This document shows, one piece after another, positions 10,036-24,074 of a stretch of DNA of 24,074 nt; the stretch's first letter is position 1; each line of letters starts with the position of its first letter. The notes under the pieces are model-generated. The model saw only the letters and a list, made by a program, of their open reading frames with translations. It had not been told where the DNA came from and did not search any database. This DNA comes from a virus, in the IMG/VR virus record IMGVR_UViG_3300040808_000895, positions 1 to 24,074 of that record. One strand, written 5' to 3'. The translations under genes and the position numbers were made by a program.

Positions 10036-11408
10036 TATAAGTCTGCCTTAGGTCTAAGCACAGTACTGAGGCTCTGTCTTTGTGCTTCTCTGTTGTTATA
10101 AATTATTACTTCCCATTGACCTGTATATTTGACAGAGGATTGTACTCCGTTGACCACAGGTAAATTAACAACAGCCTTGCCATTACCGTTGTCTGTTATT
10201 AAATCTGGATAGTCTGCTATTACAAAACCATCTTCAACAACTTTGTACTTAAGAACAAGATACAATCCTGTAATAGGGTAATTAATGTCTGTGCTGAATG
10301 AAGTATCACCTTCATAAAGATTTTTAAAATCACTAATAACTTTGTCGTTATAAGTAAATTGTGTATTATTAATAAACGAAGTTTTCTGAGTCATTCTATC
10401 ATTACTATTTGTCATTGTCATACGCACAGCGTCTTGTACTTTGACCCACCTAGTACCGTCATATCTAAACATACGTTTTGGTAAAAAGTCTGTACGTAAA
10501 AAGTAGTCTCCTGGATTAGCGCCAATTGGAAATTGAATTCCGTGACCAAATGATTCTCCATTTGGTGCGCCGTCATCTCCTAATAAGTATCCGTCATACC
10601 CCGGTTTAGGAGGATGAGTGGTAACTGTTTCTCCGCCTACTTTTTCTACTTCGACATTGCCTTCAGTATCTGTATTGAGAGTATAATAGTGTCCTATATC
10701 ATATCCGCTTTTACCAGCATCTACTTCTGCTTGTTCTAACACTGCATTATTAATTTGCATTTCTTTTTCGTAAGTAGAAAGCATATTTCTAAGAGTATCA
10801 CCGTTATCATTATCTGCGTCAGCAGGTAAATCAAGAATTTCTTTAAATTCTTGCGAGTCAACTATTTGTTTTAGTTTAAGTCTATATAAATGAGGATACC
10901 ACGTAGGACTAAATCCTTCGCTTGCACGATTCACATCTTCTACAACATAAAAGCGTTTTAATGCTAATTTATAATCGTTAAGTGCGTATTCGTCTTTTTG
11001 GTGTGGAAGTTCAAGGACATCACCGCTCATAATTTTTCTACCAAGAGTTTTTACACTACTATTGATAGGAATAGTCATAAACAACGTGTCGTTATCTAAA
11101 AACATACCAAATTGTGAAAGATTAAAGTCTACATCTTGCACATTATAAATGCCACGCATTGTATAGATATTAGGATCGTATTTTCTATCTCTGTTTTCTA
11201 AAAATAACAAATCTTGAATATTTGTTTCTTTAACAGCGTCATAGCGAGGACGATCAGCTGTAGCATCTACCTCATCTGGATTTTCTGGGCCTAGGTACTT
11301 GTGAACATTGATGTCAGTGCCACCAATAGTAAACATTTCTGTGATCTGTCGATCTAAAAATGTGTAGTCCTTACCCTTTTCTGGTTTGTATAAACTTAAT
11401 CTTGGCAT
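10035..11408 (-). CDS. 14: gp14-like neck protein
   Basis: A 457-aa protein counted from the ATG at 11408; an ATG two codons upstream at 11414 lies inside the late promoter and would not be transcribed if T4 spacing holds. Segments such as NIQDLLFLENRDRKYDPN, FGMFLDNDTLFMT and LGRKIMSGDVLELPHQKDEY fit my recollection of gp14 neck proteins of marine T4-like phages. T4 gp14 (256 aa) helps form the collar that joins head and tail. The protein here is about 200 residues longer. It contains G-D-Y-F-L-R-T-D followed by F-R-Y-D-G-T-R-W (about 300-320), a module also seen in gp15 and gp18. It is followed by gp15 with a one-base overlap, and appears to be transcribed from a late promoter five bases before its ATG, giving a leaderless message. 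Confidence 0.75.
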   Translation of the reverse strand: MPRLSLYKPEKGKDYTFLDRQITEMFTIGGTDINVHKYLGPENPDEVDATADRPRYDAVKETNIQDLLFLENRDRKYDPNIYTMRGIYNVQDVDFNLSQFGMFLDNDTLFMTIPINSSVKTLGRKIMSGDVLELPHQKDEYALNDYKLALKRFYVVEDVNRASEGFSPTWYPHLYRLKLKQIVDSQEFKEILDLPADADNDNGDTLRNMLSTYEKEMQINNAVLEQAEVDAGKSGYDIGHYYTLNTDTEGNVEVEKVGGETVTTHPPKPGYDGYLLGDDGAPNGESFGHGIQFPIGANPGDYFLRTDFLPKRMFRYDGTRWVKVQDAVRMTMTNSNDRMTQKTSFINNTQFTYNDKVISDFKNLYEGDTSFSTDINYPITGLYLVLKYKVVEDGFVIADYPDLITDNGNGKAVVNLPVVNGVQSSVKYTGQWEVIIYNNREAQRQSLSTVLRPKADL

Positions 11409-11413
11409 ATACA

Positions 11414-11421
11414 TATTTATT
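11414..11421 (-). promoter_or_regulatory. T4-type late promoter (AATAAATA) for gp14-gp15 and the downstream operon
   Basis: On the minus strand TAAATA (11419-11414) is followed by five bases and the gp14 ATG at 11408. By T4 spacing initiation falls on the A of that ATG. It is the mirror partner of the plus-strand promoter at 11423-11430, with one base between the two octamers. No terminator is visible between gp15 and the sugar operon, so this promoter may also supply the heptose genes. Confidence 0.65.
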
Positions 11422-11422
11422 C

Positions 11423-11430
11423 GATAAATA
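11423..11430 (+). promoter_or_regulatory. T4-type late promoter (GATAAATA) for gp13
   Basis: GATAAATA with predicted initiation near 11436, leaving a 13-base leader that holds the Shine-Dalgarno sequence AGAGGA before the ATG at 11449. It is divergent from, and nearly overlapping with, the gp14 promoter, so one late RNA polymerase would be expected to block the other. Confidence 0.7.
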
Positions 11431-11448
11431 CTTTACAGAGGAATTCAT

Positions 11449-12204
11449 ATGTCATTAGCTACACAGAAACAAGAAATATTTGATTACGTAAACGCAATGC
11501 TCGGTGGAGGTATGATTGATGTTGAGTTAGACCCAGTTCATTACGAAACTGCTCTAGCAAAAGCATTATCTCGCTTCAGACAAAGGAGCGATAATGCAGT
11601 AGAAGAATCATATATGTTTATGCCCACAGTACTTGATCAAAATACTTACACATTGCCAAAAGAAGTGGTAGAAGTTCGTCAAATCTTTAGACGTTCGATT
11701 GGCTCGCGTAGTGGCGGCGGCGATGGCGGGACATTGTTTGAGCCGTTTAATATGGCATATACAAATACCTATATGATGGCAAGTAGTAATTTAGGTGGTT
11801 TAGCAACATATGATTTCTTTAGCCAATATCAAGAATTAGTAGGACGTATGTTTGGTTCGTTTATAGAATTTAAATGGAATACTACAAGCAAGCAACTTAC
11901 AATTCTTCAACGCCCGCGAGCAGAAGAAAACCTAATGTTGTACGTTTATAACTATCGTCCTGATAGTGAATTACTATCAGACTATCTAGTGGTACAGTGG
12001 ATTAAAGATTATACACTTGCTAGTTGTAAGTATATGCTAGGCGAAGCACGTTCAAAGTTTGCTACTATTGCTGGACCACAAGGCGGGTCAACTCTTAATG
12101 GAGATGCATTAAAGGCAGAAGCTCAACAAGAGATGGAAAAACTTGAACAAGAAGTTATTCAACAGGTAGCAGGCGGTGTAGGCTACGGCTTTACTATCGG
12201 TTAA
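11449..12204 (+). CDS. 13: gp13-like neck protein
   Basis: A 251-aa protein with AGAGGA upstream of the ATG. The order of features matches gp13 neck proteins of marine T4-like phages: an N-terminal helix of the type Q-E-I-F-D-Y-V-N-A-M-L-G-G-G, E-L-D-P-x-H-Y-E-T-A-L-x-K-A-L, YMFMPTVLDQNTYTLP, a Gly/Ser-rich loop, then YNYRPDSELLSDYLVVQWIK and a C-terminal helix rich in Glu and Gln. T4 gp13 and gp14 together close the head after packaging and make the tail-docking site. In T4 genes 13, 14 and 15 run consecutively on one strand; here 13 stands alone on the plus strand, divergent from 14-15. The gene is not followed by an obvious terminator. Confidence 0.8.
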   Translation: MSLATQKQEIFDYVNAMLGGGMIDVELDPVHYETALAKALSRFRQRSDNAVEESYMFMPTVLDQNTYTLPKEVVEVRQIFRRSIGSRSGGGDGGTLFEPFNMAYTNTYMMASSNLGGLATYDFFSQYQELVGRMFGSFIEFKWNTTSKQLTILQRPRAEENLMLYVYNYRPDSELLSDYLVVQWIKDYTLASCKYMLGEARSKFATIAGPQGGSTLNGDALKAEAQQEMEKLEQEVIQQVAGGVGYGFTIG

Positions 12205-12224
12205 TGTTAACGCTATAATCTAAA

Positions 12225-12244
12225 CATACTGTAAATACAGTATG
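12225..12244. promoter_or_regulatory. 20-bp inverted repeat covering a late-type box and a start codon
   Basis: The arms CATACTGTA (12225-12233) and TACAGTATG (12236-12244) are perfectly complementary across a two-base centre (AA). The right arm ends in the ATG of the 74-aa gene, and the centre contains TAAATA (12232-12237). It could be an operator, an RNA hairpin that hides the start codon, or both. Confidence 0.5.
12230..12237 (+). promoter_or_regulatory. Possible late promoter box (TGTAAATA) for the 74-aa gene
   Basis: TAAATA lies four bases before the ATG at 12242, one base closer than in the gp14, tube-like and terminase units. The following bases CAGTATGA are the same as after the HNH gene's box, so TAAATACAGTATGA is shared by the two genes. 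The first two bases (TG) differ from the other boxes, which lowers confidence. Confidence 0.4.
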
Positions 12245-12466
12245 ACATATTTTCAACACAAAGAAGCAAATCGTTTGTACTGGATGGTCAAAGGACAACT
12301 TATCCCAGAATCTTGGCAAGAAAAAGATATTATGGCAACATATGAGTCATATATAAAAAGACTTTGGGGTAATTGTGAGAGAGCTGAATACAGCCTTCTC
12401 GGCTTTGATGCTGCCTGGGCAAGGCGACAAGCCAAAAACAGTAAAAAATACTTGACAAACACATAA
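12242..12466 (+). CDS. Small basic protein of unknown function (74 aa)
   Basis: A 74-aa protein that I do not recognise. It is rich in aromatic residues and in Lys/Arg. The N-terminus (Q-H-K-E-A-N-R-L-Y-W-M) and the middle (E-S-Y-I-K-R-L-W-G-N-C-E-R-A) look like amphipathic helices, and the C-terminus is basic (A-R-R-Q-A-K-N-S-K-K). No ribosome binding site precedes the ATG; the start lies within the right arm of a perfect inverted repeat and four bases after a TAAATA box. The 3' end contains the -35 box of the next gene's promoter. Being real rather than chance is supported by the plausible composition and the tight fit between gp13 and that promoter. An antisense frame (12253-12462) is open too, so this remains moderate. 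Confidence 0.55.
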   Translation: MTYFQHKEANRLYWMVKGQLIPESWQEKDIMATYESYIKRLWGNCERAEYSLLGFDAAWARRQAKNSKKYLTNT

Positions 12467-12480
12467 ATCTTCTATATACT
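12452..12480 (+). promoter_or_regulatory. Host sigma70-type (early) promoter
   Basis: TTGACA (12452-12457), a 17-base spacer and TATACT (12475-12480): a near-perfect sigma70 promoter. It is the only one I can support in the window. Initiation near 12487 would give a 20-base leader with AAAGGA before the kinase ATG at 12507. The inverted repeat ATATACT/AGTATAT (12474-12480 and 12485-12491) spans the -10 box and start point, as a repressor operator would. Confidence 0.8.
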
Positions 12481-12506
12481 ATAGAGTATATTGTAAAGGA
12501 TATTTT

Positions 12507-13067
12507 ATGTTACCTAAGTTATTAGTTGTTGGCCACGGCAGACACGGTAAAGATACAGTCTGTGAAATGTTAGAAGTATATGGGTATAAGTTTCAATCAT
12601 CGTCTAAATTCTGTTCTGAACTCTTTATCTACAATGATCTAAAAGACAAGTACGGATATAAAAATGAGGATGAATGTTATACCGATAGACATAATCATCG
12701 TGCTGAATGGTATGATATGATTCATAATTATTGTAGCAACGATCTGGCAAGACTAGGACGTAATCTATTTGCAGAACACGACATTTATTGTGGTCTACGT
12801 AATAGGCGTGAATTTTTTGCAATGAAAAATGAAGAGCTTTTTGATTATGCTATTTGGGTAGATCGTTCCGATCATTTACCTGCAGAAGATAGTACATCAA
12901 TGAGTATCGAACAATGGATGTGTGATTATACATTAGACAATAATGCATCATTAGATAGATTAGAAAGAAACGTAGAAATCTTAATACGTACTATTTTTAA
13001 AAATCAGGGACTAAGTCTCCCTGCTTCCACGTTACTCCATTCTTTTGAAGAATACGCTGACAGTTAG
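12507..13067 (+). CDS. dNMP-kinase-like P-loop protein
   Basis: A 186-aa protein with AAGGA seven bases before the ATG. The Walker A loop is G9-H-G-R-H-G14-K15-D16-T17, the G-K-D-T variant seen in T4 gp1-type deoxynucleoside monophosphate kinases. A LID-like region follows the strand FDYAIWVDRSDHLP (about 112-125), and D-Y-T-L-D-N-N then precedes the C-terminal helix. Such enzymes raise dNMPs to dNDPs for phage DNA synthesis. The protein is shorter than T4 gp1 (241 aa), so another nucleotide-type kinase is possible. It has its own sigma70-type promoter inside an otherwise late region, which fits early expression. The last 24 codons overlap the 3' end of the convergent HNH gene. Confidence 0.65.
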   Translation: MLPKLLVVGHGRHGKDTVCEMLEVYGYKFQSSSKFCSELFIYNDLKDKYGYKNEDECYTDRHNHRAEWYDMIHNYCSNDLARLGRNLFAEHDIYCGLRNRREFFAMKNEELFDYAIWVDRSDHLPAEDSTSMSIEQWMCDYTLDNNASLDRLERNVEILIRTIFKNQGLSLPASTLLHSFEEYADS

Positions 13068-13332
13068 CACAAATTGTTTTTAAGTTACTAGGACGGCAAT
13101 TATCAAGATTGCCATCTATATGAAATACATTAAACTGTTCTTCGTGTTTGCTATGGTATCCGCACTTCTCACAAGTATCTAGCTTTTCGTAACCACGTTG
13201 CTTCCACTTCGGTATTCCGTGCCCTACACCATTTCGCAAACAAGTTTCACACAGCCTACGATAGTATGTTCTTTTTCCTTTTTTATAGTTTATAGCAGCA
13301 GGACGTTGTCCGCACTTACATAACGGTCTCAT
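12997..13332 (-). CDS. HNH-type zinc-finger protein
   Basis: A 111-aa protein with three pairs of metal-binding cysteines in addition to the HNH core: C5-x-C7, C28-x2-C31, C54-x2-C57 and C88-x2-C91. The core is VFHIDGNLDNCRPSNL with H71 and N78, followed by ICANCQR. In typical HNH nucleases the last motif is C-x2-C-H; here the residue after C91 is Gln, so the final His is missing. A DNA nicking or binding role is likely for the fold; full nuclease activity is uncertain. The ATG lies four bases after a minus-strand GCTAAATA box, with no Shine-Dalgarno sequence between. It is convergent with the kinase gene and overlaps it by 71 bases; the conserved-looking ending K-Q-G-D-L-V-P-D-F suggests that the overlap is genuine. 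Confidence 0.75.
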   Translation of the reverse strand: MRPLCKCGQRPAAINYKKGKRTYYRRLCETCLRNGVGHGIPKWKQRGYEKLDTCEKCGYHSKHEEQFNVFHIDGNLDNCRPSNLKTICANCQRILQKNGVTWKQGDLVPDF

Positions 13333-13336
13333 ACTG

Positions 13337-13344
13337 TATTTAGC
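13337..13344 (-). promoter_or_regulatory. T4-type late promoter (GCTAAATA) for the HNH gene
   Basis: On the minus strand GCTAAATA (13344-13337) is followed by CAGT and the ATG at 13332. The four-base spacing predicts initiation within one base of the start codon. AGGTGAG lies upstream of the promoter and would not be in the transcript. Confidence 0.55.
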
Positions 13345-13399
13345 TCACCTTTTTGACCCCTTTTTCAGGGTGTTTAACGCACCGTTTTTATTACAAGCT

Positions 13400-13407
13400 G
13401 CTAAATA
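13400..13407 (+). promoter_or_regulatory. T4-type late promoter (GCTAAATA) for the sheath gene
   Basis: GCTAAATA with predicted initiation near 13413, giving a 36-base leader with AGGAGA (13437-13442) before the sheath ATG at 13449. The 12 bases TAACAGGAGAAC of this leader are repeated exactly in front of the tube gene. Confidence 0.7.
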
Positions 13408-13448
13408 CAAGTAGCAAAACTACGATTCGTAATAACAGGAGAACGATA

Positions 13449-16400
13449 ATGGCATTAACATCCCCAGGAGTAGAAGTCAAAGTAATTGACGAAAGTTTCT
13501 ACACTCCGGCAGAGCCTGGCACAACACCGATGATCTTTGTTGCTTCTGCGTCCAACAAGCTAAATGCTAGTGGAACAGGAACAGCACAAGGTACGCTCAA
13601 GGCAAACGCTGGTAAACCATACTTATTAACATCACAACGTGATCTAGCAGATACGTTTGGTGATCCGTTGTTTTATACAGATAACAACAATAACCCAATT
13701 CACGCTGGCGAGCTTAACGAATATGGATTGCAAGCAGCATATTCATATTTAGGTGTTTCAAACAGAGCGTGGGTTGTTAGAGCAGATATTGACTTAGCAG
13801 AAATTCAGCCTAGCTCAGATGCACCGGCATCAACTCCAGCAGCTGGCACATATTGGCTAGACACACAAACATCACAATTTGGTATTCAAGAATGGAATGG
13901 CGCAGGTGCTACAACAACCGGCGGCCAAACATTTACAAGTAAAACACCGATTGTAATTACAGATTCGACAAAATTAACAGACGGAAGTTCAGTAGTTAAC
14001 GGAACAACTGGTAAAATGCCAAAAGCAACTGTCGGTGCAATTGGCGACTATGCAGTTGTATTTGGATCAACTATTGCTAGAATGTTCTATAGAAATGCTA
14101 CAGGTACTTGGGTATTAGTAGGATCAGAAGCTTGGACAAAGAGTTGGGCAACAGTACGTGGCAACAAGTCTAACCCATCTTTTTCACAGTCATCTACAAC
14201 ATTTACAATTAACGGAACAACAGTTACAGTAACAAGTTCTAATACAATTGGCGAAGTTGCAACAAATATTGTTTCACTATTTCCATTAGGAAATATTAGT
14301 GCAGCAGCAGTAGACGGACGTTTAGAAATTTACAGCGATGGTACAGACAGTGCTGAACAGGATTCTTCAGCAGTAGGTTCTCTAGAAATTAGCGGTGATT
14401 CAACATTACTAGGCGAACTTGGTATTGCATCAGGTACTTACTATCCACCAGAACTACATATTGACAAGCATACTAGAGTTCCTGCATTTAAAGCAAGTGA
14501 TTCTTATCCACGTCCAACAGGGTCTGTATGGATTAAAACAACTGAGCCTGGAAATGGCGCACGTTGGAGAATGAAAGTATTTAACGATGCTACTAAAATT
14601 TGGGACGCAGTAGCCGCTCCAATTTATTCGTCAAACGAAGAAGCATTATACTGGTTAGATAAATTAGGCGGCGGCGCAAATATTGCAGCTGGTGATGTTT
14701 ATGTACAATCTAATGTAGCAGGCGATTCACAAAAACTAGCAACTTTTAAAGTATTCAGACGTAATGCAGTTGCACCAACAACAATTATTGGAGCAGCTAT
14801 TGGATCAAATGGTATTACAGCAGATACATATAACTTAGGTATCCAAGCAACAGCACCTAACTCTAATGCACTAAGCACTATTGCTGTTATTGAATTTACA
14901 ACAACAGGTGCAGCAACTGATGCAGATGTAATTGCAGAAGCTATTACAAATGCAGGTGTAGCCCACGTTAATGCAGAAGTTACTACAGGAAACAAAATTG
15001 TAATTACACACGCAAAAGGCGGAGATGTTAAATTAACTGACGACGGTTCAACACCAGTGTTAGGTAATGCAGGCTTTGCACATTTTGCAAATGTAAACAA
15101 CGGAACACCAAACCTATACTACGAGCCAGGAACAGATGGCGACACTGCTCCACTACAACTTCGTGGTACATTATGGAAGGCAACAATTAACGCTTCAGGT
15201 ACAGAAGTAGCATTTTATACTGCATCTGATGATGAAGTTACAGCACTAACAACTGATGGTGCATTATGGTATAATTCAATTGTTGACGAAGTTGACATTA
15301 TGATTCATAATGGTGACACTTGGGTTGGTTATCATAACTACAGTGCAGAATATGCTGATTGTGATCCTAACGGTCCGATTGTAAGTGCAAGCACACCATT
15401 ACTACAAAGTGACGGTACAGCTCTTGTAAATGGTGATTTATGGATTAGCACAGCTGATTTAGAAAATTATCCATTAATTTATCGCTACAATGCAGACCTA
15501 CAAAACACACCAATTGCAAATCGTTGGATTCTACTAGATAAAGCAGATCAAACAAGTGAAAATGGTGTACTATTTGCAGATGCACGTTACAACACAGCAG
15601 GTGCAAACAGTGGTACAGCAGGTGATATTGATGTATTACTAACTTCAAATTACTTAGATCCAGATGCACCAGATCCAGCACTATATCCAAAAGGTATGCT
15701 GCTTTGGAATTTAAGACGTTCTGGCTTTAATGTTAAGAAGTTTGTACGCAACTACATTGATATTAACAGTGACAACGAACGTTTAAATGACGAAGCAATG
15801 GGTTCTTACTATCCACATAGATGGGTAACAGAGTCAGGTAACCAAGGTGATGGTTCAGGTAGCTTCGGACGTATGGCACAGCGTAAGGTAGTTGTACAAG
15901 CGTTACAAGCTATGTTAAACAGCAACGATGATATTAGAGACGACGAATCAAGAATCTTTAACTTGATGGCAACTCCAGGATATCCAGAGCTAATTGGTGA
16001 AATGATTACACTAAACTATGACAGAGGCCTAAGTGCATTTGTTATTGGTGATACACCAGCTAGATTAAAATCAGATGCAACATCACTAAACAACTGGGCA
16101 ACAAACCAGGCACTAGCACCAGAGGACAACGACGATGGCTTAACTAGCCGCGATGAGTACTTTGGTATCTTTTATCCTTGGGGCTTCACAAGTGACAATG
16201 CAGGAAATAACGTAGTTGTTCCGCCAAGTCATATGATGCTACGCACAGTTGCACTAAGTGATCAAGTTAGCTATCCTTGGTTTGCACCAGCAGGCACAAG
16301 ACGTGGTGGTATTACTAATGCAACAGCAACAGGGTTTGTAGATGCAGAAGGCGAATTTGTAACAGTAGCGTTGAACGAAGGTCAACGTGATACATTATAC

Positions 16401-16808
16401 GCACAAGCAATTAACCCAATTACATTCATTAGTGGTGCAGGACTTGTAAACTACGGTCAAAAGACTCGTGCAAGAGGTTCAAGCGCATTAGACAGAATCA
16501 ACGTAGCACGTTTGGTAATTTACCTACGCAGCCAGTTGAATCAACTTGCTAAGCCTTACATCTTTGAACCAAATGATAAGATTACACGCGATGAGATCAA
16601 ACAAGCAGCAGAGAGCTTAATGCTCGAGCTTGTAGGTCAAAGAGCATTATACGACTTCTTAGTAGTATGTGATGAATCAAACAATACTCCAAGCAGAGTT
16701 GATAGAAATGAACTATACTTAGACATTGCTATTGAACCTGTTAAAGCAGTTGAGTTTATTTACATTCCACTAAGACTTAAAAACACTGGAGAAATAGCAG
16801 GGTTATAA
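13449..16808 (+). CDS. 18: Tail sheath protein gp18 (enlarged)
   Basis: A 1119-aa protein. The ATG at 13449 follows AGGAGA by six bases and starts the sheath signature ALTSPGVEVKVIDESF; an upstream in-frame start at 13353 precedes the promoter and is rejected. The N-terminus (1 to about 130) and the C-terminal third (LLWNLRRSGFNVKKF onward, then FEPNDKITRDEIKQAAESLM and LYLDIAIEPVKAVEFIYIP) match T4-like contractile sheath proteins. T4 gp18 has 659 residues. The extra length is a large middle region with several W/Y-containing modules (G-x-x-W-[ILY]-x-[TS] near 133, 358, 604 and 662) and two Thr/Ala-rich domains. These probably form surface-exposed domains on the sheath. The protein contracts to drive the tube into the host. 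Confidence 0.92.
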   Translation: MALTSPGVEVKVIDESFYTPAEPGTTPMIFVASASNKLNASGTGTAQGTLKANAGKPYLLTSQRDLADTFGDPLFYTDNNNNPIHAGELNEYGLQAAYSYLGVSNRAWVVRADIDLAEIQPSSDAPASTPAAGTYWLDTQTSQFGIQEWNGAGATTTGGQTFTSKTPIVITDSTKLTDGSSVVNGTTGKMPKATVGAIGDYAVVFGSTIARMFYRNATGTWVLVGSEAWTKSWATVRGNKSNPSFSQSSTTFTINGTTVTVTSSNTIGEVATNIVSLFPLGNISAAAVDGRLEIYSDGTDSAEQDSSAVGSLEISGDSTLLGELGIASGTYYPPELHIDKHTRVPAFKASDSYPRPTGSVWIKTTEPGNGARWRMKVFNDATKIWDAVAAPIYSSNEEALYWLDKLGGGANIAAGDVYVQSNVAGDSQKLATFKVFRRNAVAPTTIIGAAIGSNGITADTYNLGIQATAPNSNALSTIAVIEFTTTGAATDADVIAEAITNAGVAHVNAEVTTGNKIVITHAKGGDVKLTDDGSTPVLGNAGFAHFANVNNGTPNLYYEPGTDGDTAPLQLRGTLWKATINASGTEVAFYTASDDEVTALTTDGALWYNSIVDEVDIMIHNGDTWVGYHNYSAEYADCDPNGPIVSASTPLLQSDGTALVNGDLWISTADLENYPLIYRYNADLQNTPIANRWILLDKADQTSENGVLFADARYNTAGANSGTAGDIDVLLTSNYLDPDAPDPALYPKGMLLWNLRRSGFNVKKFVRNYIDINSDNERLNDEAMGSYYPHRWVTESGNQGDGSGSFGRMAQRKVVVQALQAMLNSNDDIRDDESRIFNLMATPGYPELIGEMITLNYDRGLSAFVIGDTPARLKSDATSLNNWATNQALAPEDNDDGLTSRDEYFGIFYPWGFTSDNAGNNVVVPPSHMMLRTVALSDQVSYPWFAPAGTRRGGITNATATGFVDAEGEFVTVALNEGQRDTLYAQAINPITFISGAGLVNYGQKTRARGSSALDRINVARLVIYLRSQLNQLAKPYIFEPNDKITRDEIKQAAESLMLELVGQRALYDFLVVCDESNNTPSRVDRNELYLDIAIEPVKAVEFIYIPLRLKNTGEIAGL

Positions 16809-16847: not shown

Positions 16848-16855
16848 GCTAAATA
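16848..16855 (+). promoter_or_regulatory. T4-type late promoter (GCTAAATA) for the tube gene
   Basis: GCTAAATA with predicted initiation at about 16861, so the message would begin at AACAGGAG and carry a 16-base leader that is essentially just the Shine-Dalgarno sequence. Confidence 0.7.
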
Positions 16856-17580: not shown

Positions 17581-17588
17581 GATAAATA
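17581..17588 (+). promoter_or_regulatory. T4-type late promoter (GATAAATA), leaderless type
   Basis: GATAAATA is followed by five bases (TTAGT) and the ATG at 17594. By T4 geometry initiation falls on the A of the start codon. No Shine-Dalgarno sequence lies between the terminator and the gene. Confidence 0.7.
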
Positions 17589-17593
17589 TTAGT

Positions 17594-18874
17594 ATGGCAA
17601 AGTTCACAGGTTTTTTAGATAACGTAGCAAATGGTATATTAAGTCCAAAAGGCAATATGGCTGATTGGCAACACGCCTCTCGACTATATGTTACAGATAC
17701 ACAGAAACACGCACCTAAGGTTTCTTTCCTTTATCACGTAACATTTTATCTTACTGAACAAGCAAAGGCAATTATACCTGAAGTTGATCAGTATAAACAC
17801 GAAATTGGAATGCTTGTAAAACAAGCAGACTTACCTAAGTTTACTGCACAAGTTGAAGTAAAAAACAAATATAACAGAAAAAAGAATGTTCAGTCAAGAC
17901 TAGACTATTCTCCAATCAATATTACATTCCACGATGACAATTATGGTGCTACTACAGCACTTATGGAGGCGTATAATAGATATTATTTTGCAGACATAAA
18001 TCATTCTCTAAACGACGGTGCATATGGTAATAGACGTACTGGCGATACACTCTATGACGGCCCAGGAACAAATACATTTAAATTTGGTATGGACAATAAT
18101 ATACCAAATGTTCCATTTTTTGATAGAATAGAAATTGCACAAATGGCTCGTAAGAGCTATACAAAGTATACCCTAGTAAACCCGATTGTTACTGGTTGGG
18201 AACACGATAATGTAAACAATTCAGATAGTAATCCTTTAGAAAATAGAATGACTATCCAATATGATACTGTGTTCTATGACAGGGGTCACGTAGATGCAGG
18301 TGAAAACGGAGATCCAGCTGGATTTGGTAAATCCGATCATTATGATAGAACACCAAGTCCTATTACACCATTAGGTGGCGGACAACTAGGAATAGATGGT
18401 ATTTTTGGAACAGGTTTAGACTTATACGAATATATCACACAAGGTAAGAATTTTAGTAATCCGCTAGAAGCAGGAATTGCAGCAGTTAATTTGTTCCGTA
18501 GTGTTAGAGACAACGGAACCGATGGCCTTAGAGAAGGCGGATTTAGATTACTTACTGATGTAATTGGCGGCGCAGCAGGAATTGACGTATCAGGTGTTTC
18601 TCAAACATTCTTTCCAAAAAGTCAAGGAAGGGGCGGAGATGCAGGAACATTACTTGTTGCTACAGCAGCGGTAGCAGGACTAACTTCTGTTGTTAGAAAT
18701 TCAAATACATCAACATCAAGCAGCACCGGAGATACAAGTCCGCAAACAATTGATGATTTAAGATTTCAAAACTTTCAAAAACAATATCAAGCCAACGGAG
18801 GGACTGGCGGAATAAACGGAGCAAGAGTAAGTTTTGATGCATTGTCAGATGCAGCAAAAACCACATTCGATTAA
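17594..18874 (+). CDS. gp19-like tail-tube-fold virion protein
   Basis: A 426-aa protein. The N-terminal 130 or so residues have the tube-fold pattern: PKVSFLYHVTFYL (41-53), then IGMLVKQADLPKF (71-83), V-E-V-K-N-K-Y-N-R-K-K, and S-P-I-N-I-T-F-H-D-D (106-115). These line up with K-Q-V-V-D-V-T-R-P, V-Y-N-S-R and I-T-L-N-L-R-E-D in the true tube protein just upstream, so the two look like distant paralogues. The rest (about 230-426) is Gly, Ser and Asn rich with a hydrophobic stretch near 350-366 (LLVATAAVAGLTSVV). Candidates are a tube-tip protein of the gp48/gp54 type or a tube terminator; the sequence does not decide. The start has no ribosome binding site and lies five bases after a late promoter. 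Confidence 0.6.
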   Translation: MAKFTGFLDNVANGILSPKGNMADWQHASRLYVTDTQKHAPKVSFLYHVTFYLTEQAKAIIPEVDQYKHEIGMLVKQADLPKFTAQVEVKNKYNRKKNVQSRLDYSPINITFHDDNYGATTALMEAYNRYYFADINHSLNDGAYGNRRTGDTLYDGPGTNTFKFGMDNNIPNVPFFDRIEIAQMARKSYTKYTLVNPIVTGWEHDNVNNSDSNPLENRMTIQYDTVFYDRGHVDAGENGDPAGFGKSDHYDRTPSPITPLGGGQLGIDGIFGTGLDLYEYITQGKNFSNPLEAGIAAVNLFRSVRDNGTDGLREGGFRLLTDVIGGAAGIDVSGVSQTFFPKSQGRGGDAGTLLVATAAVAGLTSVVRNSNTSTSSSTGDTSPQTIDDLRFQNFQKQYQANGGTGGINGARVSFDALSDAAKTTFD

Positions 18875-18886
18875 TAAGGAATTAAA

Positions 18887-19255
18887 ATGTCAAGTTTACC
18901 AAAAGAAGCCCCAGATAATTATAGCGACAAAGGAGTAACTAAATTCTTTGATAACTACTTTTCAAAAGAATTAAGTTTTCCATCTAATCAAGTTGATGCT
19001 GTTGTAACCTTTTTTACAAAAAGAGGCTTTGATAAAACATCAGCAATTAGTGTTGCAACTACATTACTTCAGCAGGCAAAGATCGATAATGTAAAAATAT
19101 TTCAGCTACTAGATACATTAACAGGATTAAATGAAATTCAATTAAGTTCAATTGTTACAGAAGTATTAAACTATAATAGGCCAAAAACAAGTACATTAGG
19201 ATTTAAACGAACCGAGTCAGCTGATAAGATTGAAAAAAGAAATATAGTAGCGTAA
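18887..19255 (+). CDS. Small conserved-looking protein, function unknown (122 aa)
   Basis: A 122-aa protein with AAGGA seven bases before the ATG, 12 bases after the tube-like gene, so it is translated from the same message. It has an N-terminal part with V-T-K-F-F-D-N-Y-F, a helical centre (AISVATTLLQQAKIDNVKIF) and a Lys/Arg-rich C-terminal tail. No motif identifies it. Its place between a tube-fold protein and the head-completion nuclease gp4 suggests a minor virion or assembly role, but this is inference from position alone. Confidence 0.7.
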   Translation: MSSLPKEAPDNYSDKGVTKFFDNYFSKELSFPSNQVDAVVTFFTKRGFDKTSAISVATTLLQQAKIDNVKIFQLLDTLTGLNEIQLSSIVTEVLNYNRPKTSTLGFKRTESADKIEKRNIVA

Positions 19256-19256
19256 G

Positions 19257-19697
19257 ATGGCTAGGTTTGCCCAAGGAAAGTTTACACCTAAGTTTCCTGA
19301 AAAATACATAGGAACACGCACTCCAACTTACAGAAGTAGTTGGGAATTCCACTTTATGAAATTTTGTGATGAACATCCTAGTGTAGAAAAATGGGCAAGT
19401 GAAAGTATTCGTATTCCTTATAAGAATCCATTAACTGGCAAGCACACAATTTATGTTCCAGATTTTTTTATTTCATATACTGATAAGTCGAAGGGTAAAA
19501 GGGTCGAACTTATAGAAGTAAAACCAGCAAATCAAACAATTAGAGAAAAAGTCGGTAAATCAAGAGTAAATCAAGCAAGTTATATTGTAAATCAAGCAAA
19601 GTGGGCAGCAGCATATGCATTTTGTAAACAAAAAGGTATCATATTTAGAATAATTACTGAAAATGATATTTTTCATCAAGGAGGCAAAAGACGCTAA
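19257..19697 (+). CDS. 4: gp4-like head completion protein (TnsA/PD-(D/E)XK nuclease fold)
   Basis: A 146-aa protein starting two bases after the previous stop, close to the length of T4 gp4 (150 aa). The nuclease fold is visible: E30 in YRSSWEFHFMKF, D69 in YVPDFF, and E87-V-K89 in ELIEVKP, an arrangement like TnsA and other PD-(D/E)XK enzymes. The helix RVNQASYIVNQAKWAAAYAF follows. In T4 gp4 (also called gp50) is needed to complete filled heads before tail joining, probably by trimming DNA. All expected catalytic residues are present. The stop codon TAA doubles as the first half of the TAAATA box of the next gene. Confidence 0.85.
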   Translation: MARFAQGKFTPKFPEKYIGTRTPTYRSSWEFHFMKFCDEHPSVEKWASESIRIPYKNPLTGKHTIYVPDFFISYTDKSKGKRVELIEVKPANQTIREKVGKSRVNQASYIVNQAKWAAAYAFCKQKGIIFRIITENDIFHQGGKRR

Positions 19698-19700
19698 ATA
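19693..19700 (+). promoter_or_regulatory. T4-type late promoter (GCTAAATA) for gp16
   Basis: GCTAAATA overlaps the gp4 stop (TAA at 19695-19697). Predicted initiation near 19706 leaves a 20-base leader to the ATG at 19726, with no strong Shine-Dalgarno sequence. Confidence 0.65.
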
Positions 19701-19725
19701 ATAGTAGCATTTAATGGTATAAACA

Positions 19726-20226
19726 ATGACTAAAAAATTAGAAGAACTTCTAAACTTGCCAGATTCGAAAGAAATTGTAGATGACGCAAAAGCAGAAGAT
19801 AAAAAAACAAAAAAAGATACTGCTATTATTGAAGCAGAAGAAACTCAACGCGATATTCAAGAACTAGATAAAATTGCGGCTGCTTTACCTAGCGTTAAAG
19901 GCTTGGGCGAAATGGCCGATAAAGAATTAAATGAAGTTGCAGATAAAGCAATGAACGCATATGAAGATTTAATGGATCTTGGTATGAATGTTGAAAGCCG
20001 CTATAGCGGTCGTGTTTTTGAAGTAGCAGGGGGTATGCTAAAAACATCATTAGATGCTAAAGTTGCAAAAATGGATAAGAAATTAAAAATGATTGAATTG
20101 CAACTTAAAAAAGAAAAAATGGATAGAGACGGGTCTTCCGGTGAAGGAAATATTGTATCAGGTGAAGGATACGTAGTTACAGACCGTAATAGTTTATTAG
20201 AGAAACTAAAGAATATGGATAAATAA
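19726..20226 (+). CDS. 16: Terminase small subunit gp16
   Basis: A 166-aa, highly charged, mostly helical protein, close to T4 gp16 (164 aa). The centre (ADKAMNAYEDLMDLGMNVES, then VFEVAGGMLKTSLDAKVAKM) predicts the helical hairpin that forms gp16 rings. The C-terminus (GEGYVVTDRNSLLEKLKNMD) fits small terminases of marine T4-like phages as I remember them. gp16 recognises DNA and regulates the packaging motor gp17, encoded 1.4 kb downstream; in T4 the two genes are adjacent, while here two head-associated genes are in between. The last codons and stop (GAT-AAA-TAA) are at the same time the GATAAATA late promoter of the next gene. Confidence 0.72.
   Translation: MTKKLEELLNLPDSKEIVDDAKAEDKKTKKDTAIIEAEETQRDIQELDKIAAALPSVKGLGEMADKELNEVADKAMNAYEDLMDLGMNVESRYSGRVFEVAGGMLKTSLDAKVAKMDKKLKMIELQLKKEKMDRDGSSGEGNIVSGEGYVVTDRNSLLEKLKNMDK
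20218..20225 (+). promoter_or_regulatory. T4-type late promoter (GATAAATA) for the internal head protein
   Basis: GATAAATA forms the last two codons and most of the stop codon of gp16. Initiation near 20231 leaves a 17-base leader containing GCGGGA before the ATG at 20248. Confidence 0.7.
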
Positions 20227-20247
20227 TACAAAGCGGGAATAATGATT

Positions 20248-20805
20248 ATGAAAAGTTTTTCAGAATATTTAACAGAGTCTAAAAAGACTTATGATTTTAA
20301 AATTGGTGTAGCAGGTGACTATGCTAGTGAATGCAAGTCAGGACTAGAAAACGCACTCGGAAAATACGGTTTAGTTAAAATAACAGACGGTAAAAGAGTA
20401 CCTATTTCGAAACGTCCATTAGACTTTCCACAATTAGATAATATTGATGTAACTTATTTTGAAGCAGAAGTTACATACCCGACTACAGTGCAAGTATTAC
20501 AAGAGTACCTAGGAAAATGTTGCAATATCCCGCAAAGCAATATTATTGTACGTGACCCACTTGCTCCACAAGAAGATTATCAAGAAGAAAGATCAAACGA
20601 ACCATACGAAGCTAAACTTAATACAGAAGATATGGGCGGCGAAAGTGCTCAAGCTGATGTAGCAGGTAATAGAGTTATGGACTTACTTAAAGAATTAGAA
20701 GTTGCTCGTAAGGAAAGAGAAGTCGATCCAATTGCAGGCACTCCGCCAGGCGAGTCTAAAGATATTGGTGAATCAGAAAACAGCAAATCGGTCGTAGGAG
20801 GCTAA
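20248..20805 (+). CDS. Predicted internal head (prohead core) protein with capsid-targeting peptide
   Basis: A 185-aa protein. The ATG at 20248 sits nine bases after GGGA; an ATG six bases earlier is in frame but only three bases from the same site. The first ten residues M-K-S-F-S-E-Y-L-T-E resemble the T4 capsid-targeting sequence of internal proteins (M-K-T-[FY]-x-E-F-x-x-E), and L-T-E would be a cut site for the gp21-type prohead protease after E10. The mature part has PLDFPQLDNIDVTYFEAEV and PTTVQVLQEYLGKCC, a compact alpha/beta-looking domain, then an acidic, Gln/Asn-rich C-terminus. I infer packaging inside the capsid. It could have another role, since I do not recognise the domain itself. 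Confidence 0.6.
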   Translation: MKSFSEYLTESKKTYDFKIGVAGDYASECKSGLENALGKYGLVKITDGKRVPISKRPLDFPQLDNIDVTYFEAEVTYPTTVQVLQEYLGKCCNIPQSNIIVRDPLAPQEDYQEERSNEPYEAKLNTEDMGGESAQADVAGNRVMDLLKELEVARKEREVDPIAGTPPGESKDIGESENSKSVVGG

Positions 20806-20809
20806 TACA

Positions 20810-21526
20810 ATGGATATGAAAAAAATCTTAGAAAATATGGATGCTGCGGCAGCTGGCAACAAACCATCAGCAGGTGCAGGAAACATAAATGATATGAAAA
20901 CTATTTTAGAGTCAATTCAATCAGTTGAAGAATGTGGAATGACAGAAACTGGAATTGAAGAAGGCGGCTGCGGAAGCGATATGAGTATGCCAAGCGAACC
21001 AGAAGACAAAGTGTCAATGAATGTTACACTTAATGCACGTGGTGACGCTGTTGAAGACCTAATTAAATTAATGGGCGGAGCAGCAGCTCCACAAGATGCC
21101 CCAGTTAAAATGCCACCGCCACCGATGGCAATGCCTGGACCAGACCCACGTGATGCAGAAATGGGCGATATGAAAAAGATGATGAAAATCTCAACAGATG
21201 GTCCAGAAATGATGGACGATGATGTTGAAGAAGATTGGGATAACAGTCCAGAAGAAGAATACAGTGATACTAAGACAATGACTAAAGATTTGTCAGGTGG
21301 TATCAATAGAGAAAAGAAAGCATACAAAGCTACACAAGATGGCGACAATCCAATGGCTGTTGAAGCTGAGGAATTAACAAAGTCTATCAAAGAACAATTA
21401 CTACAAGCATTAGAAGAAAAGTATTCAAGTGATGCACAGCGCAAAGCAGTACACGCAAGTAAAGATGAGGACGACGAGAAGACTGATGAAGCTTCTTGTG
21501 GTTCAATGAAAAAGAAGAAAAAATAA
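20810..21526 (+). CDS. Low-complexity acidic protein, possible prohead scaffold component
   Basis: A 238-aa protein with AGGAGG eight bases before the ATG, immediately after the internal head protein. It is rich in Asp, Glu, Met, Pro and Gly, with no globular domain that I recognise. A short motif D-M-K-x-I-L-E-[NS]-[MI] occurs twice (about 2-10 and 28-36), with a looser D-M-K-K-M-M near 120. A proline/methionine run (MPPPPMAMPGPDP) lies near 101-113, a predicted helix E-L-T-K-S-I-K-E-Q-L-L-Q-A-L-E-E-K near 188-204, and the protein ends M-K-K-K-K-K. Such composition is common in phage scaffold and core proteins, and the position between internal head protein and terminase agrees. The open frame on the opposite strand is a shadow of the codon bias. 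Confidence 0.65.
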   Translation: MDMKKILENMDAAAAGNKPSAGAGNINDMKTILESIQSVEECGMTETGIEEGGCGSDMSMPSEPEDKVSMNVTLNARGDAVEDLIKLMGGAAAPQDAPVKMPPPPMAMPGPDPRDAEMGDMKKMMKISTDGPEMMDDDVEEDWDNSPEEEYSDTKTMTKDLSGGINREKKAYKATQDGDNPMAVEAEELTKSIKEQLLQALEEKYSSDAQRKAVHASKDEDDEKTDEASCGSMKKKKK

Positions 21527-21550
21527 TAATAATATAGCAACATAAACTTC

Positions 21551-21577
21551 AATAGGCACTTCGGTGCCTATTTTTTT
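21551..21577 (+). terminator. Rho-independent terminator with UUCG tetraloop
   Basis: A 9-bp stem AATAGGCAC/GTGCCTATT (21551-21559 with 21564-21572) capped by TTCG and closed by a C-G pair, followed by five more T. It ends the gp16-to-scaffold unit just before the terminase promoter. Confidence 0.93.
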
Positions 21578-21578
21578 C

Positions 21579-21586
21579 ACTAAATA
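21579..21586 (+). promoter_or_regulatory. T4-type late promoter (ACTAAATA), leaderless type, for terminase
   Basis: TAAATA (21581-21586) is followed by five bases (TTAAT) and the terminase ATG at 21592. It begins two bases after the terminator T-run, so the terminator and promoter fill the whole gap. Initiation by T4 spacing is on the A of the ATG, with no room for a Shine-Dalgarno sequence. Confidence 0.7.
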
Positions 21587-21591
21587 TTAAT

Positions 21592-23172
21592 ATGGCAGCA
21601 TCATTAGACGGCGTCTTAATTAAAAAGGCGAATAAACAAGAAACATTTACAGAAGATCAGATTGCTGATATTGCAAAGTGTATGGATCCTAATACAGGCT
21701 ATCTATATTTTGCAGAAAACTTTGCGTATATCCAACATCCTGTACAAGGCAAACTTTTGTTTGAACCTTACAATTACCAGTTAGGATTAATGGATACTTA
21801 TCATAACTATCGCTTTAATATTAATATGATGCCTCGACAGACAGGTAAAACTACTTGTGCTGCTATCTATCTTGCTTGGTATGCGATGTTTAATCCAGAC
21901 CAAACTATTCTTATTGCTGCACACAAATACACAGGTGCCCAGGAAATTATGCAACGTATACGTTATGTATATGAAATGTGTCCTGATTATATCAGAGCAG
22001 GTGTTACAAGTTACAATAAAGGCAGTATTGAGTTTGAGAATGGATCACGTATTGTATCACAAACAACAACGGGCAACACAGGACGTGGTATGTCTATCTC
22101 GCTACTATACTGTGACGAGTTTGCTTTTGTTATGCCTAACATTGCGGAAGAGTTTTGGACTTCGATATCACCTACATTAGCAACAGGTGGTCGTGCTATT
22201 CTTACAAGCACACCTAACTCAGACGAAGATACTTTTGCTACTATATGGAAGCAAGCAGAACAACGCTTCGACGAGCACGGTAATGAAAGTGAACTAGGAA
22301 TTAATGGCTTCCGTTCGTTTATGGCGCACTGGAGCGAACATCCTGATCGTGACGAAGATTGGAAAACAACAGAAATCGGCCGTATTGGAGAAGAAAAATT
22401 CCGTCGAGAGTACGGCTGTGAATTCTTAGTATTTGACGAAACATTAATTAACAGTATTAAATTAGCAGTAATGGAAGGCGGCAATCCTATTCTTAATATG
22501 GGTCAAACACGGTGGTATAAAAAGCCTAATCCAACATATACATATGCAGTGGCACTTGATCCTAGTATGGGCACTGGTGGAGATAACGCTGCTATACAAG
22601 TTTTTGAACTACCAACATACGAACAAGTTGCAGAGTGGCAACATAACAACACAGCTATACCTGGACAAATTAGAGTATTGGCTGATATATGTAGATATAT
22701 AGAAGAATGTACTAAAAACCCGCAGGGAATTTACTGGAGCGTGGAGAACAATGGATTGGGCGAGGCTGCCCTAATCGTTATAAATGACTTTGGAGAAGAG
22801 AATATTCCGGGTTTATTCGTCAGTGAGCCAATCCGAAAAGGACACGTTCGTAAATTCCGCAAAGGCTTTAATACTACACATAGTACAAAAGTAACTGCTT
22901 GCAGTAGGCTAAAAACTATGATCGAAAACGATAAGATGACTTTGCATTCTAAACCATTCATATCAGAACTAAAAGGATATGTAGCAACAGGGTCTAGCTT
23001 CCAAGCAAAGGTTGGAATGACAGATGATCTAGTAAGTGCAACCCTATTAGCAATACGTATGATGGCTGTACTAAAAGACTGGGATCCTAGAATATATGAT
23101 TCTTTCAACCAAGCAGAGCACGATGAAGATTATGAACCACCAATGCCAATCTTCATTAGTAGCAATTATTGA
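21592..23172 (+). CDS. 17: Terminase large subunit gp17 (packaging ATPase/nuclease)
   Basis: A 526-aa protein. The ATPase domain has Walker A PRQTGKTT (81-88), Walker B LLYCDE (171-176, catalytic E176) and the coupling motif TSTPN (205-209). The RNase H-fold nuclease domain begins with A-L-D-P-S-M-G-T-G-G-D-N (D323), continues with VENNGLGEAAL and has an acidic D-D near 477. These are the features of T4 gp17, the motor that cuts concatemeric DNA and pumps it into the prohead. It is a little shorter than T4 gp17 (610 aa), mainly at the N- and C-termini. The gene has no ribosome binding site and is predicted to be translated from a leaderless mRNA. Its stop codon TGA overlaps the next late promoter. 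Confidence 0.95.
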   Translation: MAASLDGVLIKKANKQETFTEDQIADIAKCMDPNTGYLYFAENFAYIQHPVQGKLLFEPYNYQLGLMDTYHNYRFNINMMPRQTGKTTCAAIYLAWYAMFNPDQTILIAAHKYTGAQEIMQRIRYVYEMCPDYIRAGVTSYNKGSIEFENGSRIVSQTTTGNTGRGMSISLLYCDEFAFVMPNIAEEFWTSISPTLATGGRAILTSTPNSDEDTFATIWKQAEQRFDEHGNESELGINGFRSFMAHWSEHPDRDEDWKTTEIGRIGEEKFRREYGCEFLVFDETLINSIKLAVMEGGNPILNMGQTRWYKKPNPTYTYAVALDPSMGTGGDNAAIQVFELPTYEQVAEWQHNNTAIPGQIRVLADICRYIEECTKNPQGIYWSVENNGLGEAALIVINDFGEENIPGLFVSEPIRKGHVRKFRKGFNTTHSTKVTACSRLKTMIENDKMTLHSKPFISELKGYVATGSSFQAKVGMTDDLVSATLLAIRMMAVLKDWDPRIYDSFNQAEHDEDYEPPMPIFISSNY

Positions 23173-23178
23173 TAAATA
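23171..23178 (+). promoter_or_regulatory. T4-type late promoter (GATAAATA), leaderless type
   Basis: GATAAATA overlaps the terminase TGA stop (23170-23172) and is followed by CTTTT and the ATG at 23184. The five-base spacing again places initiation on the start codon. Confidence 0.68.
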
Positions 23179-23183
23179 CTTTT

Positions 23184-24074
23184 ATGAAGAGTCTTGACAA
23201 CATAGCAGAAGATCTATTTAATAAAATTCGCGGAAGGTTCCCTAGCGTTACTATCGGCGACGAAGCAGGAAAAGTTACTAATGATCCAATTGTAGCTCGC
23301 TTTTTTGATTTTGATTACAAAGAAGGAGATAGAAATATCGGTAAAGTAAGTATTTCTATCAGTGAAGATAAACTTGCTGTTATGTATAGCAACAGTTTTG
23401 TAGAAAACGAAGATACAATTACTAGGCAAAACTGGTATAACTTTTTGAAAGAATTACGTGTGTTTGCTAAGAAAAGATTACTACAGTTTGATACTAGAGA
23501 TATTACTAAATCAAACTTAGACAAGAGAGATTATAAATTCCTAGCGCAACAACGAGGCGGAGAACAAACAATGAGCGAGTCAACAATGTACGGTACAAGT
23601 AAAGTCAGCTACCAAGATATTGGTAATGCAAGACTAACTATTAAGCATACTGAAAGTGTAAACCAAGAACAATCAACAGGTAGAACAAGAAAAATTGGTG
23701 CTATCTACGTAGAAAACACAGACGGTGAAAGATTTAAATATCCTTATAAACATCTAAACGGTGCAAGAGCAATGGCAAGACACGTTGCAGAAGGCGGAAA
23801 GCCATATGATGATTTCGGTAAACATATTACAGGACTGTCAGAAGAACTAGCTAATTTACGCAAATTTAAAACTTATATGAATCGCTCAAGCGTAATGGCA
23901 GAAGGTCTAGCAGGATATATGGGTGCTGTTGCTGAAAGACTTGAAACAATTAAAAAGACTGTGTCCGGCCTACAAAAAGAATCATTCTATAAACAAGCAT
24001 TTGAATCTTATGAAGTACCTGTTGTAGAAGATGTACCAAACGATGTTGCAGAAAATTGGATCGACGAACTTACT
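23184..24074 (+). CDS. Large protein of unknown function downstream of terminase (partial)
   Basis: The frame is open from the ATG at 23184 to the right edge of the window: 297 codons with no stop. I do not recognise the family. The N-terminus (M-K-S-L-D-N-I-A-E-D-L-F-N-K-I) looks helical and is followed by an alpha/beta region (about 30-110) with F-F-D-F-D-Y and N-W-Y-N-F-L-K-E-L-R-V-F-A-K-K-R-L. A middle segment with repeated charged strands (IKHTESVNQEQS, IGAIYVENTDGERFKYPYKH) leads to a helix with H-L-N-G-A-R-A-M-A-R-H. The rest is helical and charged. It may be a virion-associated protein, judging by its own late promoter and position after terminase; this is inference only. No Shine-Dalgarno sequence precedes the start. 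Confidence 0.8.
   Translation, partial: MKSLDNIAEDLFNKIRGRFPSVTIGDEAGKVTNDPIVARFFDFDYKEGDRNIGKVSISISEDKLAVMYSNSFVENEDTITRQNWYNFLKELRVFAKKRLLQFDTRDITKSNLDKRDYKFLAQQRGGEQTMSESTMYGTSKVSYQDIGNARLTIKHTESVNQEQSTGRTRKIGAIYVENTDGERFKYPYKHLNGARAMARHVAEGGKPYDDFGKHITGLSEELANLRKFKTYMNRSSVMAEGLAGYMGAVAERLETIKKTVSGLQKESFYKQAFESYEVPVVEDVPNDVAENWIDELT

Follow-up and report, generated by a model that had tools for sequence, protein, structure and literature searches.

Late promoter boxes set four or five bases before start codons predict leaderless late mRNAs in two lineages of T4-like phages

Background

The late promoter of bacteriophage T4 (TATAAATA; gp55/gp33/gp45) has its box at -13 to -6 relative to the transcription start (+1), according to the available text of PMC1524935. 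This study concerns the same core box, TAAATA, in a 24,074-base stretch of viral DNA that constitutes the complete IMG/VR record IMGVR_UViG_3300040808_000895 (hereafter the window; GC 36.8%). There the box stands only four or five bases ahead of the start codons of six genes, an arrangement in which the A of the AUG would itself be +1 and the late mRNA would be leaderless. The T4 system and the phages analysed here share the core box and, in several of these phages, a sigma factor of the gp55 family; the +1 predicted here is compatible with that of T4. T4's own boxes, however, are most often found 24-28 nucleotides (nt) before the ATG, and the spike at 4-5 that marks the clade of the window is absent from T4.

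In leaderless mRNAs generally, ribosomes start on a 5' AUG. The late promoter of vaccinia virus, TAAATG, has its box fused to the start codon; vaccinia infects eukaryotes, transcribes its genes with an unrelated apparatus of its own and has 5' poly(A) heads on its messages. Among phages, a described case is Thermus phage phiYS40, which is unrelated to those considered here. Most of its middle and late mRNAs are leaderless by the account in the accessible part of PMC3594737, a likeness to the late messages that are predicted from sequence in the present work. The difference is that phiYS40 appears from that account to be mostly leaderless in its middle and late classes, whereas here two modes would share a promoter type and divide largely along gene lines. 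In bacterial TA-led genes (Zheng et al. 2011), a signal resembling a -10 element and lying about 10 bp ahead of the start codon is taken to indicate leaderless transcripts, as set out in the available text of PMC3160421; the logic of spacing is the same, but those are host genes and the element here is a phage late-sigma box. According to the accessible text of the AR9 paper (PMC5312081), the transcripts of phages "are often leaderless". For the pelagimyophages, late-promoter prediction is reported as unsuccessful in the available part of PMC7029224, and the Melnitz paper predicts 15 late promoters with TATAAAT, leaders going unmentioned in the available part of that text (PMC9004378). The available text of the open-licence PMC literature, a scope outside which most subscription papers lie, yielded no account of T4-like phages with leaderless late mRNAs.

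Results and discussion

Box-to-start spacing in the window and its relatives

Throughout, the gap is the number of bases between TAAATA and the start codon, and a direct site is one with the box at gap 4-5. The initial annotation had placed the box at gap 5 before the ATGs at 11408, 17594, 21592 and 23184 and at gap 4 before those at 12242 and 13332; all six sites lie exactly there. They represent 6 of 41 candidate starts in the window, an ATG being a candidate if its frame had 60 codons or more and was open for no more than 25 codons upstream. In 100 dinucleotide shuffles of the 60-nt regions before these ATGs, the mean was 0.12 and the maximum 1. Because TAAATA itself is depleted in the window (27 occurrences vs a shuffle mean of 42), richness in A+T does not explain the six sites. 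An additional exact match to TAAATA-5-ATG, the fifth, at 13738-13751 on the minus strand, coincides with the start of no listed gene. The leadered late genes of the window have TAAATA at gaps of 16, 18, 21, 25, 32 and 41. Their predicted leaders are about 11-36 nt long, in place of the 13-36 bases first given.

At least 80 relatives of the window are present in IMG/VR, with terminases 83-92% identical to its own. The closest isolates by terminase are jumbo phages, namely Pseudomonas phage PA5oct and its kin (55% identity), the gene order of PA5oct resembling that of the window, followed by Sinorhizobium phage Phosso and Agrobacterium phage Atu_ph07 (49-50%). Over 81 loci of this clade (1.05 Mb, counting ATGs that open frames of 60 codons or more), the distances from TAAATA to ATG have two peaks, with a narrow spike at 4-5 and a second, wide hump at about 20-31. 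There are 84 ATGs at gap 4 and 169 at gap 5, compared with 0-2 at gaps 0-3, none at 6, 16 at 7 and 0-8 at each of 8-19. This is the sharp peak at 5 that had been proposed in advance as a test across the genome and its relatives against shuffled controls.

A second set comprised 110 loci (1.62 Mb) with 1741 genes in 482 families, the genes being called by a codon-bias rule of our own in place of annotation; pieces of the window, loci inside three long clade records (G001-G003), T4 and PA5oct were left out. Genes called in this way number 0, 0, 76, 183, 3 and 17 at gaps 2, 3, 4, 5, 6 and 7, and the 259 start codons at gaps 4-5 are all ATG, with no GTG and no TTG (at longer gaps, counts of GTG and TTG include internal codons and are unusable as a contrast). 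A scan of all hexamers at gaps 0-35, made without a prior motif, returned TAAATA at gap 5 as the leading combination (27 families), ahead of every Shine-Dalgarno (SD) hexamer by number of gene families (AGGAGA at gap 5, 22). TAAGTA likewise peaks at gap 5 (7 families, 17 genes). When ten control hexamers were counted over the 81 loci, ATAAAT and AAATAT spiked through their overlap with TAAATA, and the others gave scattered, smaller peaks. TTAAAA, with 2083 sites in those loci, has local peaks before ATG at gaps 3 (40), 5 (48), 21 and 23.

Signature of the predicted start point

T accounts for 0.85 and C for 0.15 of the bases that precede the ATG at 220 deduplicated direct sites, with A and G at 0.00 after rounding; in leadered genes, defined here and in the comparisons of SD motifs, of the bases before the box and of terminators by a box 17-32 nt before the ATG, this base is A in 0.57. 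A start at the A of ATG or its neighbour had been proposed. At gap 5 a start at the A fits the spacing of T4, with +1 at box+6. At gap 4 that spacing would begin the transcript at U, and a start at the A needs +1 at box+5; the spacer there is nearly always CANT (C in 60, A in 58 and T in 62 of 64 sites), and therefore +1 would be box+5. In SD-bearing leadered promoters, the pyrimidine-purine (YR) step at box+5/+6 ranks top of ten positions in T4 (0.50, n=22), KVP40 (0.50, n=12), PA5oct (0.58, n=24) and Mosig (0.58, n=12), and narrowly so in G001-G003 (0.47, n=57, next 0.44) and in a 335-kb contig, G011, with this terminase (0.47, n=32, next 0.41). An initiator at box+6 thus agrees in 6 of the 12 groups scored.

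SD tetramers at -20 to -4 occur in 6% of direct sites (14/220), compared with 63% of leadered genes and 56% of those without a box at those gaps; direct genes thus mostly lack this signal. Eleven of the 14 positive sites belong to the tube-like family, in which AGGA abuts the box and lies ahead of the predicted +1. The extended box GATAAATA is common to direct and leadered sites. Because GA precedes both alike (direct/leadered: G 0.66/0.66, A 0.63/0.79; all boxes 0.29/0.28), the two sets of boxes look like one promoter type. Terminators within 70 nt upstream of the box accompany 61 of 217 direct sites but 4 of 227 leadered ones (9/34 vs 4/67 by family). By a simple hairpin rule they precede 33 of 49 terminase sites, and in many relatives, too, the U run at the terminase ends about three bases before the box.

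The box, its spacing and the conservation of that spacing, the scarcity of SD motifs and the initiator signature are all features that can be read from the DNA. The pyrimidine at -1, the scarcity of SD motifs, the shared extended box and the position of the initiator agree independently, and for this reason they support a +1 at the A of ATG. We assign a probability of roughly 0.85 to the interpretation that T4-type late promoters in these phages start transcription at the A of AUG, yielding leaderless mRNAs beside SD-led ones. The earlier interpretation is thus supported as a prediction. In mechanistic terms, the boxes, extended to GATAAATA, would be T4-type late promoters, recognized by host RNA polymerase that carries a gp55-like sigma of the phage. 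The direct set would have the A of AUG as +1 (box+6 at gap 5, box+5 at gap 4 with CANT), and the resulting message would need ribosomes that recognize a 5'-terminal AUG. In the leadered set the same promoter would lie about 16-41 nt upstream, with a leader that usually carries an SD. We infer the actual +1, the use of gp55 and leaderless translation.

The best-surviving alternative, though an improbable one, is that an A+T-rich hexamer near the ATG acts in translation, as an unstructured or S1-binding element on longer transcripts from upstream promoters, and is not a promoter. Read-through from upstream is possible, for example from the terminase into gene 23184, and the A+T-rich TTAAAA also peaks locally at gaps 3 and 5. 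Such an element, however, need not be a late box, and the spacing of TAAATA is sharp (76 genes at gap 4 and 183 at gap 5, against 0 at 3 and 3 at 6). The extension to GATAAATA as in leadered promoters, the terminators just upstream and the pyrimidine at -1 likewise speak for promoters.

More doubtful still is misannotation of the ATGs, in which case the boxes would be promoters and the genes, starting in fact further downstream, would be leadered. Codons 2-10 are indeed weakly conserved in the 23184 and tube-like families (amino acid identity 0.43 and 0.36). Nevertheless, a downstream in-frame start preceded by an SD exists in just 3 of 248 direct genes, and a single family of 35 has one in over half of its members. 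Alignments of five families place the first residue within two columns, and SLDGVL immediately after the start is common to the terminase relatives.

Gene families and their mode

For family counts, a gene was leadered when TAAATA lay 18-35 nt before an in-frame ATG within its first 120 nt, and genes with both arrangements were counted as direct. Thirty-four families have at least one direct member, some of these being expected by chance. The terminase family has TAAATA at gap 4-5 in 65 of 80 genes and TAAGTA at gap 5 in 10 more (75/80 direct), with none leadered by TAAATA. The spacer letters vary among these relatives and its length stays at 4-5. Since TAAGTA replaces TAAATA at the same five-base gap, the late sigma of the clade probably accepts this variant too; the terminase starts concerned are those of loci L006, L007, L014, L017, L025, L028, L053, L067, L072 and L081. 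The tube-like family is direct in 44 of 49 members with none leadered, and all 14 usable members of the HNH family (family 20) are direct. In the family of the head protein gene at 23184, 68 of 151 usable members (155 in all) are direct, the clustering having lumped two genes of the window.

Other families are leadered with no direct member: the small-terminase-like family (57/61), that of a 187-amino-acid product (58/62) and that of the tail tube (43/44). The sheath family has 13 of 40 members leadered at 18-35 and the adaptor family 2 of 10, again with none direct. A direct spike and a leadered hump exist side by side, and the sequences support the coexistence of two modes that the initial annotation suggested, with several large gene families keeping theirs and a few being mixed. 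In several large families the mode would thus belong to the gene and would be kept by selection on the length from box to ATG.

Distribution among phages

Single genomes were compared with their own shuffles; several of the spike-negative genomes in this comparison were covered in part. Sites at gap 4-5 number 17 vs a mean of 1.70 in G001 (275 kb; G001-G010 denote clade records and L numbers loci), 7 vs 0.94 in G002, 8 vs 0.74 in G003 and 18 vs 1.89 in G011:C57, the 335-kb contig, which is binned in a metagenome-assembled genome. Enrichment is therefore seen in all five clade records tested, the window and four records of 155-335 kb. Outside the clade, two cultured Pelagibacter phages show an excess, HTVC008M with 11 vs 1.14 and Mosig with 5 vs 0.98. 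The spike is absent from T4 (1 vs 1.34), KVP40 (0), Syn9 (0), S-PM2 (0), PA5oct (2 vs 2.65) and Atu_ph07 (0). We do not claim it for Melnitz-1 (3 vs 0.92, reached by 7 of 100 shuffles), AG-345-L05 (0) or P-SSM2 (2 vs 1.07, reached by 25 of 100).

A count of the bare pattern against a reversed control on both strands gave 16 vs 3 in G001, 14 vs 7 in G002, 5 vs 2 in G004, 6 vs 1 in G005, 6 vs 0 in G006, 4 vs 1 in G007, 4 vs 2 in G008, 6 vs 0 in G009 and 9 vs 1 in G010. No spike was found by this count in Phosso (3 vs 2), Vibrio phage 2.275.O (3 vs 3), 121Q (6 vs 11), CBB (4 vs 10) or AG-345-F15 (2 vs 3).

In HTVC008M (NC_020484), 12 of 14 exact TAAATA-5-ATG sites are annotated starts, the other two lying in the DNA polymerase gene and in an intergenic region. 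The direct starts include those of the DNA end protector, head closure, tail tube cap, tape measure, baseplate wedge subunit, wedge initiator and tail completion genes. Gap 5 is kept before the tail tube cap gene in 21 of 24 loci identified through its protein, one of them HTVC008M; in two exceptions (L302, L303) the match does not begin at the start codon, and the third (L301) is an incomplete locus. Of the 20 of those pelagimyophage loci in which the region upstream was considered, 13 have the end protector at gap 5, while the gene was not found in L291. The end protector and head closure genes adjoin back to back, and the ATG of the latter is also mostly at gap 5 (gap 6 in L288). The HTVC008M genes for gp23, sheath and tube have a strong SD and no box within 60 nt; its adaptor has gap 8, and its portal has a distant box, an SD and a GTG start. 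An SD is present and the box absent before gp23 of G002, G003 and G006 also. The trait is thus found in two T4-like lineages, the jumbo clade and the pelagimyophages, and was not seen in the tested relatives; two gains and several losses are both possible.

Chance, or inheritance of a few old sites from a single ancestor that are then counted repeatedly, is the least credible explanation, for although the loci are homologous and some singletons must be accidental (in G001, with 17 sites, about 1.7 are expected), 34 families have a direct member (27 at gap 5), the spike is seen in single genomes against their own shuffles, in unrelated families and in the distant pelagimyophages, and the terminase spacer changes its letters while keeping a length of 4-5.

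Late transcription machinery and points of difficulty

The search for a sigma factor of the gp55 family covered genomes other than the 24-kb window. Such a protein was found in two of ten clade records (G002, G003) and in all six other phages searched (T4, PA5oct, Atu_ph07, HTVC008M, Mosig and Melnitz). The gp45 clamp (phrog_223) is present in T4, HTVC008M, Mosig and Melnitz. Ribosomal protein S21 encoded by the phage was considered as a cause and rejected, as it occurs in phages without the spike too and hence is not specific: its genes lie at G001:C1:181826-181981, HTVC008M 91237-91392, PA5oct 170985-171143 and Atu_ph07 489120-489257, and none was found in the nine other clade records searched or in T4. 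Host assignment through terminases in bacterial genome bins was likewise abandoned, since the five loci concerned fall in bins of four unrelated groups; no host is proposed.

Several observations weigh against leaderless starts at these boxes. No gp55 match was found in G001, for all its 275 kb and 17 sites, or in seven shorter clade records, and the PHROG for gp45 (phrog_223) was not found in the ten clade records, PA5oct or Atu_ph07. The YR step at box+5/+6 is not top in Atu_ph07, HTVC008M, Melnitz, S-PM2 or P-SSM2 (the last two scores resting on 4 and 3 promoters) and ties in Syn9; in the clade leadered set before deduplication, box+2/+3 is slightly above it (0.57 vs 0.54), while with one gene per family box+5/+6 leads (0.45, n=67). 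The bare pattern in G003 occurs 9 times vs 8 in the reversed control, from which it is separated only with the start filter. Among families, 5 of 80 terminase genes lack both TAAATA and TAAGTA at gap 4-5, and the terminases of L219 and L220, from a genome bin, are preceded at 23 nt by TAAGTA, with AAGGA in the leader. The 74-amino-acid family is mixed (3 direct, 4 leadered, 4 neither; n=11), 13 members of the 23184 family have their ATG at gap 7, that is, a leader of 2-3 nt, and gene 23184 of the window could also be translated from the terminase transcript. Six of the 20 pelagimyophage end protectors are at gap 8 (L294-L298, L300). Finally, some presumably low-copy genes are leadered (the adaptor at 11449, the small terminase).

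L219 and L220 are phage contigs binned as Neomarinimicrobiota, and their terminase represents a switch of mode inside the clade.

Possible use and implications

The likely use of the direct arrangement would be as a very short, portable promoter-plus-start cassette, able to follow a terminator immediately or to adjoin a second promoter back to back. Compactness and portability of this kind would suit the divergent promoter pairs, the placing of boxes just after terminators, and the presence of the box at HNH and small singleton genes. We further infer that the direct mode may give a modest output suited to low-copy proteins, with capsid, sheath and tube keeping their SD. A simple high-copy/low-copy rule, based on presumed copy numbers, agrees with gp23, sheath and tube, which have an SD with or without a distant box; it was set aside, since the adaptor and the small terminase are leadered. 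On balance we lean, by a small margin, towards a broader picture in which two separate marine lineages have re-tuned T4-type late transcription so that a single promoter type yields two classes of message within one cell. Low-copy packaging, neck, baseplate and mobile genes would have leaderless messages and the bulk virion proteins SD-led ones, the 14 bases of box, spacer and AUG forming a self-sufficient cassette with which genes could be inserted behind any terminator.

If true, these would be the first leaderless late mRNAs in T4-like phages, as far as the literature search shows. The way in which leaderless and SD messages from the same promoter type are apportioned in one cell would become testable, with HTVC008M on Pelagibacter HTCC1062 as an available cultured system. 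The spacing offers a criterion by which late promoters and true start codons can be identified in these marine phages, and it may bear on the failed late-promoter predictions for pelagimyophages, as these are described in the accessible text of PMC7029224.

Organization of the window

By PHROG matches, the window holds a T4-type structural cluster, composed of sheath stabilizer-like and virion proteins, an adaptor, a sheath, two tube proteins, head closure, a small-terminase-like gene, the large terminase and a head protein. The virion structural protein gene at 10035..11408 on the minus strand (phrog_11591, 5.8e-87), with a predicted leaderless mRNA, has its late box at 11414..11419 (minus; gap 5 to ATG 11408), and its family is direct in 4 of 7 members; the label "gp14" given to it by the initial annotation is not backed by any match. 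The head-tail adaptor gene diverges from it at 11449, with a late box at 11425..11430 on the plus strand (gap 18) and an SD-like AGAGGAA. Between 11406 and 11451, a predicted leaderless virion gene and a leadered adaptor gene thus diverge from promoters that overlap within about 40 bp.

The 74-amino-acid gene (12242..12466, plus), which is without a PHROG match, follows a box at 12232..12237 (plus; gap 4, CAGT). The HNH endonuclease-like gene (12997..13332, minus; phrog_10822, 7e-4), predicted to be leaderless, has its box at 13337..13342 (minus; gap 4, CAGT, to ATG 13332); its HNH_3 match scores 22 bits, under the cut-off of 24.8. This gene may be mobile and may bring its own promoter-start cassette. 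The tube-like tail protein of 426 amino acids (17594..18874, plus; phrog_13438, 1e-16), also predicted leaderless, is preceded by a box at 17583..17588 (plus; gap 5).

Leadered genes on the plus strand have their boxes at 13402..13407 (tail sheath, ATG 13449; gap 41, SD AGGAG), 16850..16855 (tail tube, 16877; gap 21, SD AGGAG), 19695..19700 (small-terminase-like gene, 19726; gap 25; phrog_445, 1.2e-4) and 20220..20225 (gene 20242, of the leadered 187-amino-acid family; gap 16).

An intrinsic terminator, AUAGGCAC-UUCG-GUGCCUAU with a U run (21552..21577, plus), ends three bases before the box at 21581..21586 (plus; gap 5) of the large terminase subunit (21592..23172, plus; phrog_36964, 2e-123), for which a leaderless message is predicted. 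Immediately after the terminase stop codon, a further box at 23173..23178 (plus; gap 5) serves as the candidate promoter of the head structural protein gene (23184..24074, plus; phrog_13484, 6.8e-16), which is cut by the end of the record and is likewise predicted to be leaderless.

An HldE-like gene (PfkB plus cytidylyltransferase) at 6990-8144 on the minus strand is without a box in the window; 20 of 26 members of its family have one at gap 4-5. The tail sheath gene (13449-16808) encodes about 1,120 amino acids and is far longer than the sheath of T4 (659 amino acids).

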